From positions 1 to 47,724 of the forward strand of contig CABPSV020000020.1 of assembly GCA_902459845.2 (NCBI GenBank): a DNA stretch of 47,724 bases, written 5' to 3'. Source of the stretch: Hepatocystis sp. ex Piliocolobus tephrosceles. Its lineage: Eukaryota; Apicomplexa; Aconoidasida; Haemosporida; Plasmodiidae. The notes beneath the pieces were generated by a model that was not told where the DNA came from, did no database searches, and saw only the letters and a list, made by a program, of their open reading frames with translations. Each line of letters begins with the position of its first letter. The stretch's first letter is position 1. This document shows, in pieces, positions 30,821-32,927 of the stretch. The position numbers and the translations under genes were made by a program.

Positions 30821-32488
30821 TCATTCAATTATATTTCTATATTCTTCCAAAAACCAATCAATAGTTTCTTTTAAACCTAAAATATTATGTTCATATGAAA
30901 AAAAAAAAAAAAAAAAATTATAGGCTTTATAACTATTTCATTTAAATTAATTAAAAAAAAAGTGACAACCAAATCACTTTTTTTTTTTTTTTTGTCTTTC
31001 ATTTAACTTTTTTAACCTTTATCTATATTAGTAAATACAAAGGACATATCTAATATTTTCATTAATTTATTATTACATGTCTACAAAAAAAATAAAATAA
31101 TATGTTACAGTAAAAAAAAAACAGTTGTTTTGTCTTTATTTTTTTTTTTTTTTTAGCTTATATGTATGACATATATATTATTATGCTTTTTTTTTTTTTT
31201 ATTATTGTTTTATATATTGTTAAATTAAAACCTTTTTGTGAATCACACTTTCTTCTCTCGTATCAAACTATAGAAACAGAAAAAAAAAAAAAAAATGTTT
31301 TATTTGTGTATGTATATTTGTTCTTATAACTTATTTTATGTTGCTTATTATACAATATAACACGATCTGATAATAATTTATCTTTTTCTTTTTCTTCCGC
31401 CCGCTCTCACTTTATATATATATATACATATATACTTACTAATATTTCATTATTAAATCCCAAGTAATGTTTGATTTTGTTTGCCAATTCTTTAATAGTT
31501 AATTCTTATTAATCATAAAAAAAAATAAAAAAAAATAAAATAAAATAAAAATAAAATAAAAATAAAATATTTGTTTTTTTTTTTTTTTTTCTTAGTATTT
31601 CAAATGTATCTGATAGAAAAAAAAAAAATAATAAACAAAATAATAAAAAAAAACTTCACTATACATATTTATATAATTACCATTGGAAGGGATATTAGTA
31701 GAAAATATAATGTTAAAAGTGTCATCTTTAATTATAGTTAAATGTTCGGAATAATAAGTATTTAGAATATAATATAATATTTTACACACATCACTATTGT
31801 AAATAAAATGATTAGCAGTTGTCCCATCACTCATAAGTTTTACGTTTATGTTATGTACTAAAAAAAAAAAAAAAAAAAAAAAAAAGTAATAATAATTTGG
31901 ACTATTGTGTGTGTGTATACATGTATGTATAAGTTTATACAATATATATATATATATATATATACATGTATTTATGTGTTAAATATTCTTCTATATATTA
32001 TTTTTTTTTTATATTTTAGAAGCCTAGCACTACCTTTTGCTAAATACATCTTATGAATAATATAAGGTATAATGTGTGAATTTTCTAAGTTGAAATTGTC
32101 ATATTTACCATATATATTAGTAGGTATTATACAAACCCATTCGTAATTATATTTTTCCCTATAAAAACGAACCATGAGTTCTAACACTCTTTTTGACACA
32201 CTATATCCTTCATTACTTAAATGACACAATTCTTCATGTATACTATCTTCTGCTAAAGGTGAATTAAATTTTTCAGGAAAAACACAAATAGGTAAAGCAA
32301 AAAATCCTCTAGCGATCTATAAGGTAATACAGAAAACAAACGTACATACATATTATACATACTTAGACTCATGTGTATATCAAATTTACTCATTTATACA
32401 TGTGTATGTACTTATGTGTATGTAAATATAACTTAACGTTTACTGATTCTTTCTATTAATAGTTTATACATAGTAAATAAGAAATAGT

Positions 32489-32529
<41 letters not shown>

Positions 32530-32927
32530 GTGTATGTGTATGTATACATGTTTTCTTTTTTTTTTTTATTATCTTTTACCGTATATTTGTGGCAAAGTTT
32601 AATAATATTTAAATTTATTTCCAAATTTTTTATTACAAATTCTAGGTTATTATTTATATTTGTATTTAAGTTATCTGTATATGCTGTAAAATGTATTATA
32701 TCGGTAATTTTATTATTTTTAAAAAAAATTTCAGCATCATTAAAATTTCTTAGATCACATATTTTAGAACTTAAAAAAATATATTTTTTTATTACATTAC
32801 TGTCATTTGAATTAACAATTATTTCATTTTCATTTTCGATAAAATCTACGTTTTCTTTCTTTACAGTCTCACGGAAGCTGGTTCCCAATAAACCAGTATC
32901 ACAAGTGACAAGACAAACCCTTGACAT
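30821..32927 (-). CDS. FS: GDP-L-fucose synthase-like protein, active-site residues replaced
   Basis: Homologue of the bifunctional epimerase/reductase that makes GDP-L-fucose from GDP-4-keto-6-deoxymannose. Seven exons (32927-32580, 32316-32034, 31857-31681, 31504-31440, 31267-31232, 31080-31017, 30876-30821) have GT/AG borders and join in frame to 342 aa, near the family's roughly 320. Colinearity with human GMER runs end to end, for example PTNIYGKYDNFN with 'PTNVFGPHDNFN', HFIYNSDV with 'QFIYSLDL', and KETIDWFLEEY with 'KETCAWFTDNY'. Tyr and Lys of YxxxK (GYSVSKR) and the catalytic Cys (ICVFP) are kept. The Ser two before that Cys is Pro, the catalytic His is Tyr (GKYDNF), TGGSGLVG is TCDTGLLG, and the RR before QFIY is gone. 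P. falciparum FS is reported active and rodent parasites lack the pathway. This copy therefore looks intact in structure but altered in chemistry. Intron 1 holds a TATATG repeat. Confidence 0.88.
32484..32532. repeat. TATATG hexanucleotide repeat in FS intron 1
   Basis: About eight copies of a TATGTA unit within the first intron of FS; open on the minus strand as YTYT, but it lies after the exon 1 donor at 32579. Confidence 0.85.

Follow-up and report, generated by a model that had tools for sequence, protein, structure and literature searches.

Lineage-specific replacements in the ligand pocket of an intact Hepatocystis GDP-L-fucose synthase gene: a probable loss of activity under relaxed constraint

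In the human GDP-L-fucose synthase (FS, or GMER), Cys116 and His186 form the epimerisation pair, Tyr143 aids reduction, residues 74-82 close over the GDP with Phe77 stacking on the guanine, and Arg215 and Lys282 grip the beta-phosphate of GDP (PMC12362431); the triad residue is printed there as Thr114, and alignment gives a Ser two before the Cys. The P. falciparum FS has been reported to be active in vitro (PMC4628283), and Table 1 of that paper credits P. berghei, P. yoelii and P. chabaudi with both GMD and FS. The statement in the original prediction that rodent malaria parasites lack this pathway is therefore contradicted (the P. chabaudi FS is homologue P0004 of our set), and because these parasites possess it, the Hepatocystis FS is not an intermediate towards a rodent-parasite loss, as had been proposed. 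In PfGMD null mutants growth is normal and GDP-fucose is still present, which points to a further source of it; P. berghei mutants of GMD and of FS also seem to grow normally (PMC5110956). POFUT2 adds O-fucose to TSR adhesins, a step reported to matter for P. falciparum transmission (PMC5601480), whereas PoFUT2 is reported as not essential in P. berghei (PMC6616114). A literature search returned no pseudoenzyme short-chain dehydrogenase (SDR) reported together with Plasmodium, and nothing joining Hepatocystis and fucose beyond a classification review. Hepatocystis is transmitted by midges, not mosquitoes, and has no blood schizogony. The main texts of two papers on it (PMC7425995, PMC12187015) do not mention fucose.

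The window analysed here is the whole stretch of 47,724 nucleotides of Hepatocystis sp. ex Piliocolobus tephrosceles (contig CABPSV020000020.1). On its minus strand, seven exons join into a coding sequence of 1029 nt for 342 amino acids, with an ATG start, a TGA stop, no internal stops and six introns that are all GT-AG (Table 1), bearing out the open seven-exon gene with consensus splice sites that had been predicted; no hallmark of a pseudogene (broken frame, splice site or start) was found in it. Over its 342 aa the product matches, with 100% identity, the public Hepatocystis protein P0001, deposited as the 'GDP-L-fucose synthase' of Hepatocystis sp. ex Piliocolobus tephrosceles. In the database protein search, the Plasmodium FS P0002-P0008 showed 66-72% identity over 99%; homology extends over the whole length, and the SDR fold is closest to GMER. 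The best NCBIfam model was NF047922 (GDP-L-fucose synthase), at 138.9 bits against a cut-off of 500, with P0002 (181.4) and P0008 (178.4) likewise below it. The Plasmodium FS (PF3D7_1014000 and orthologues) are of near-equal length and carry the same insertions relative to the Trichoplax FS, the Hepatocystis protein being one residue shorter near the start of exon 6 (exon 5/6 junction). The PI-PLC and eIF2B-delta genes share the contig with FS, and both are, we presume, placed near FS on P. falciparum chromosome 10. Judged by this homology, the Hepatocystis gene is the orthologue, by descent, of the Plasmodium GDP-L-fucose synthase. AlphaFold2, a method insensitive to point changes, models it with the FS fold kept (pLDDT 89.8; P. 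chabaudi FS, 92.1).

Table 1 Exons of the Hepatocystis FS gene and replaced or retained residues (window positions; exon boundaries as acceptor, then donor, with a slash at the splice point).
Feature	Residues	Window positions	Strand	Detail
FS exon 1	1-116	32580..32927	minus	ATG start; donor TACG/GTAAAAG
FS exon 2	117-210 and one base	32034..32316	minus	acceptor CCTTATAG/ATC; donor AAAG/GTAGTG
FS exon 3	rest of 211 to 269 and one base	31681..31857	minus	TTAG/TAC; AATG/GTAATT
FS exon 4	rest of 270 to 291	31440..31504	minus	AATAAG/AAT; ATTA/GTAAGT
FS exon 5	292-303 (12 codons)	31232..31267	minus	TATAG/TTT; AAAG/GTTTTA
FS exon 6	304-324 and one base	31017..31080	minus	TTGTAG/ACA; AAAG/GTTAAA
FS exon 7	rest of 325 to 342 and TGA stop	30821..30876	minus	TTTTAG/GTT
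Cys-Asp replacing Gly-Gly	9-10	32898..32903	minus	first Gly of TGxxGxxG lost; Gly in 8 haemosporidian relatives
TAYTDNLNT replacing AAxVGGLYA	81-89	32661..32687	minus	cofactor wall and GDP-binding hinge
ALPIC replacing TLSTC	123-127	32284..32298	minus	Pro at the catalytic Ser and Ile at the Thr; Cys unchanged
Tyr154...Lys158 (YxxxK) retained	154-158	32191..32205	minus	E. coli Tyr136/Lys140 column
Tyr188 in GKYDNF	188	32101..32103	minus	E. coli His170 column; not the catalytic His
His197 retained	197	32074..32076	minus	catalytic His179 (E. coli), His186 (human)
SDGTTANH replacing GDG(T/S)AxRQ	220-227	31808..31831	minus	Gly220 and phosphate-binding Arg226 lost
ESV replacing DNG	297-299	31244..31252	minus	near retained Lys303

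Other features of the window lie apart from this gene. Upstream of the FS start, at a distance of about 0.4 kb, two minisatellites (16/48-bp and 20-bp units) occupy positions 33320-33746. A 1436-aa ORF (35505-39815), for which no Pfam family was matched, contains a long low-complexity CCAAAT/CCAACT repeat (36372-37112) that lies in the most GC-rich part of the window and where antisense ORFs of 265 and 266 aa are found. There are two-copy tandem duplications (98%) of 177 bp at 23235-23589 (59 codons, inside ORF 22817-23731) and of 92 bp at 20980-21171. An eIF2B-delta filed in UniRef under Piliocolobus tephrosceles (P0122) shows 90% identity across 74% of the query at 25618-28737 and is, on this likeness, a parasite protein filed as a host protein.

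Residues were mapped by alignment with the E. coli Fcl, for which the numbering follows the Fcl gene itself, and with haemosporidian homologues, eight of them full-length: seven Plasmodium and P0009. The latter, a 343-aa FS on a 1329-base contig, falls outside the Plasmodium/Hepatocystis set (support 93) and has His at position 188, which suggests a haemosporidian outgroup FS. Two P. ovale curtisi models (P0010, P0011) are without internal segments found in P. ovale P0006, and their exons are likely mis-annotated.

The Plasmodium FS keep TGGxG, AAxVGG, STC and RQFIY, and the Hepatocystis FS does not. Its dinucleotide motif reads T8-C9-D10-T-G12-L-L-G15 in place of TGxxGxxG; the originally predicted change of the Rossmann TGG to TCD (G9C, G10D) does occur, and none of the eight other full-length haemosporidian homologues shares it; as the second place of the TGG is His in E. 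coli, only the first Gly is family-wide. The GDP-binding hinge AAxVGG is TAYTDN, again unlike all eight, and the human Phe77 position, Tyr88 in Plasmodium, is Asn. The Ser/Thr of the Ser-Tyr-Lys triad is Pro125: the predicted Ser to Pro replacement was confirmed (S125P, at E. coli Ser107) and is likewise not seen in the eight homologues. Of the arginines before QFIY said to be lost, one loss is real (R226N, in the column of E. coli Arg209 and human Arg215, unchanged in the eight relatives) and the plural was wrong, Plasmodium having just one there. Set against the human enzyme (4bkp, 4b8z, 4bl5), the Hepatocystis FS lacks counterparts of the Ser of STC, of the P-loop Gly and of Arg215, and in the 74-82 GDP hinge it has lost the Gly-Gly and the residue at the Phe77 position; set against the E. 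coli Fcl/WcaG (1bws, 1e6u), Gly10 has become Cys9, Gly67-Gly68 Asp85-Asn86, Ser107 Pro125, Ser108 Ile126 and Arg209 Asn226. Changes that had not been listed earlier include A81T, V84T, G85D, G86N, Y88N, A89T, T126I and G145E, as well as G220S, Q227H, D297E, N298S, G299V and R341I, among others.

Several catalytic residues stay. Tyr154 and Lys158 of YxxxK and Cys127 are present, as had been predicted; the epimerisation dyad (E. coli Cys109/His179) is found as Cys127 and His197; and E. coli Lys283 maps to Lys303. The reported change of the catalytic His to Tyr in GKYDNF was misplaced, E. coli His179 mapping to the retained His197. At column 188 the seven aligned Plasmodium and Trichoplax have Tyr too, and Tyr188 is shared, together with the Cys, His, Tyr and Lys, by the Plasmodium and Hepatocystis FS; because this Tyr is shared by Plasmodium including, we assume, the active P. 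falciparum FS (most likely a member of the P0008 cluster, whose name is Plasmodium sp. DRC-Itaito), Tyr188 would be no sign of decay.

The first P-loop Gly, the hinge Gly-Gly, the Ser and the Arg are each at least 99% conserved in 109 non-haemosporidian homologues (from the 120 listed of 253). The Hepatocystis protein is missing four sequence features that define the FS family (dinucleotide motif, hinge, triad Ser/Thr and GDP-phosphate Arg), and for this reason we do not class it as an active GDP-fucose synthase. A synthase still working with compensated substitutions would account for the presence of Cys127, His197, Tyr154, Lys158 and Lys303, and an SDR with Ala for the Ser exists (WbmF, PMC2279256), but we judge it improbable: the P-loop has lost its first Gly, the hinge its two Gly, and the catalytic Ser and phosphate-binding Arg are gone with them, all at positions with the conservation just given and unchanged in the eight haemosporidian homologues.

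Hepatocystis differs at 29 of the 186 columns that are constant in the seven Plasmodium, and each Plasmodium, left out in turn, differs at 2-11 of 159-168 columns (P0009 and the incomplete gene models P0010 and P0011 are excluded from these counts); with P. gonderi left out as well, Hepatocystis has 31/190 and P. vivax 15/174. Where at least 95% of the 109 non-haemosporidian homologues agree, Hepatocystis breaks 19/65 columns, a count that no other homologue among the 120 listed of 253 reaches (next, 11/66; Plasmodium maximum, 7/65). The Hepatocystis branch is long genome-wide (PMC7425995), and for this reason two genes on the FS contig, few as they are, served as controls: eIF2B-delta and PI-PLC. 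In the eIF2B-delta domain 4/169 conserved columns were changed in Hepatocystis (200-700 region, 8/215), the whole eIF2B (25/337) lying inside the Plasmodium range (P. chabaudi, 35/347; P. cynomolgi, 30/342). In the PI-PLC catalytic region 11/252 were changed, FS being higher (Fisher p = 8e-5), and the FS excess was also found against the whole PLC (34/567, p = 1e-4). The Hepatocystis branch is the longest in FS (0.310; others 0.058-0.174) and in the PLC region as well (0.258; others 0.056-0.219), so branch length by itself is not FS-specific. The ratio of changes at conserved and variable columns (0.90 for Hepatocystis, 0.18-0.84 for the others) comes from small counts and is suggestive only; in the FS tree the position of Hepatocystis has low support (47), and the topology was left unused. 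The FS changes are lineage-specific and in excess over the control genes, and the predicted alteration of the active site in the Hepatocystis lineage stands, its His excepted.

Two technical readings bear on these counts. The assembly is a short-read draft made from monkey blood (PMC7425995), and errors of sequencing or assembly might be suspected; 29 clustered substitutions with no frame error, beside two neighbour genes whose conserved domains are far less changed, make such an artefact hardly credible. That the gene is a decaying duplicate of a normal FS elsewhere in the genome is very improbable too: the contigs searched are 12.39 Mb of a 19.95 Mb assembly, which leaves room for a second copy, but a distant FS query (P0019, 38% identical) found a single FS locus in them, and one Hepatocystis FS appears among the 120 listed of 253 matches, where a second would be expected near the top.

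The changes are grouped along the protein: 15 pairs of neighbours lie within 3 residues of each other where 7.0 were expected (p = 1e-4), and the nearest-neighbour distance gives p = 0.008. A wide set of ligand and catalytic positions, drawn up after the changes were seen, was changed at 15/37 against 14/149 elsewhere (p = 2e-5); a set of published contacts plus P-loop Gly gave 7/20 against 22/166 (p = 0.02), and a UniProt-style residue set 6/18 against 23/168 (p = 0.04). These figures suggest that losses may have centred on the pocket while the fold was kept. They could also speak for a pseudoenzyme or repurposed SDR, in which selection keeps a folded protein for binding, dimerisation or another ligand; the open frame and intact splice sites despite many pocket changes, and the modelled fold, are in line with it. 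With the Gly columns removed, however, the narrower sets lose significance (p = 0.11 and 0.08; wide set, p = 0.004), so drift under relaxed constraint and AT bias is enough. Of the residues whose codons are rich in AT (F, I, K, N, Y, M), 5/77 were changed, and of G, A, R, P 12/33 (P, 0/5), as AT-biased neutral drift predicts likewise. The model says little of point changes and no positive sign of a new ligand was found, and we hold a selected pseudoenzyme or repurposed SDR to be possible but rather unlikely. As to the new role, changed substrate or loss of constraint originally offered, the last is the best option and the first two are without positive evidence.

Relaxed constraint is also in keeping with the composition of the changes. 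Seven of 14 conserved Gly were lost in the Hepatocystis FS and none in each of the seven Plasmodium, counted alike; GC at first and second codon positions was lowered by 16 changes and raised by 6 (two-sided p = 0.053). Constraint was gauged via amino-acid counts, the two control genes and a missense/nonsense calculation, which covers substitutions and not indels: for this AT-rich sequence a missense-to-nonsense ratio of about 11 is expected, and the probability of no stop is about 0.17-0.08 after 20-29 neutral missense changes and 0.005 after 60. Retention of all of Cys, His, Tyr and Lys has a probability of about 0.50 under random changes. Conserved columns are intact at 157/186 while dS is saturated between Plasmodium clades (PMC7425995), therefore FS was not unconstrained along the whole branch, and its relaxation would be recent, partial, or both.

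The acceptors of fucose were read in the same genome. The PF00090 profile gave six TSR matches in the searched contigs (12.39 of 19.95 Mb), all above the cut-off, and each was read in frame. In the two species compared, P. falciparum and P. vivax, TRAP has its O-fucose acceptor in the Thr of CSVTC, and this Thr is replaced in all four TRAP-like repeats of the three Hepatocystis TRAP genes read, by Ser, Ser, Pro and Ala: L014 (CSESC) and L012 (CSASC, cut by the contig end) keep a fucosylatable Ser; L011 (CSVPC) and L015 (CSVAC), two repeats of one protein (G000:C1:70241-70519), are non-fucosylatable at the sequon. The CSP-like L010 keeps CSVTC, a point in favour of a working FS, and L013, which is not TRAP-like, reads CTMEC. 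L011, L014 and L015 also have one extra residue between the Trp (WDSEW, WDAEW) of the WxxW of P. falciparum and P. vivax TRAP (WDEW, WDPW), which we take to be the C-mannosylation site. The sequon is missing from some P. falciparum TSR proteins as well (PMC5601480), and six trap copies are reported in Hepatocystis, with one in every Plasmodium compared (PMC7425995). A TRAP acceptor that is no longer conserved fits a dwindling need for fucose, but the trap duplication alone could relax the copies.

No GMD was found within 12.39 of 19.95 Mb (about 62%) with the E. coli Gmd and human GMDS as queries, a search of fair sensitivity, judging from the recovery of the FS gene by P0019. A TGQDG DNA pattern with one mismatch occurred at two places in these contigs, neither of them GMD. 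The Pfam profile PF16363 gave no GMD and also misses the FS gene, so it is uninformative, and PF10250, a profile without positive control, gave no POFUT2 match in the searched contigs.

The reading that we prefer, and consider probable, is that relaxed constraint has cost the Hepatocystis FS its GDP-fucose synthase activity, while fold and frame stayed intact. On the Hepatocystis branch the pocket would have lost constraint (P-loop Gly, AAxVGG hinge, catalytic Ser and GDP-phosphate Arg gone), while the fold, the reading frame and the residues for proton transfer (Cys127, Tyr154, Lys158 and His197) stay; because NADPH and the GDP-sugar would not be held properly, GDP-4-keto-6-deoxymannose is most likely no longer converted to GDP-fucose. 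As the likely cause we infer that de novo GDP-fucose and TRAP fucosylation became dispensable, AT-biased amino-acid drift following. Dispensability of the route is plausible in view of the growth of PfGMD nulls and of P. berghei GMD and FS mutants (PMC5110956) and of the non-essential PoFUT2 (PMC6616114). Against a loss of activity count the intact frame, splice sites, start and stop, the intact conserved columns, the retained Cys, His, Tyr and Lys, the equally long-branched PLC region, the CSP sequon, the Ser kept in two of four TRAP repeats and the whole-eIF2B count.

The label 'GDP-L-fucose synthase' on the Hepatocystis protein should not be relied on untested in metabolic models. The further picture of a Hepatocystis without de novo GDP-fucose, whose FS is a folded pseudoenzyme or a protein of another ligand, its NADPH/GDP-sugar pocket lost and its Cys-His-Tyr-Lys residues kept, and whose multiplied TRAPs are shedding their acceptor, is speculative and, as a whole, unlikely. 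The change seen in the sequences is a coupled one, the donor enzyme eroded and the TRAP acceptor replaced. If the FS is dead, this would be a natural loss of de novo GDP-fucose inside the Plasmodium clade and, if true, it would bear on the dispute whether TSR O-fucosylation matters for transmission (PMC5601480, PMC6616114).
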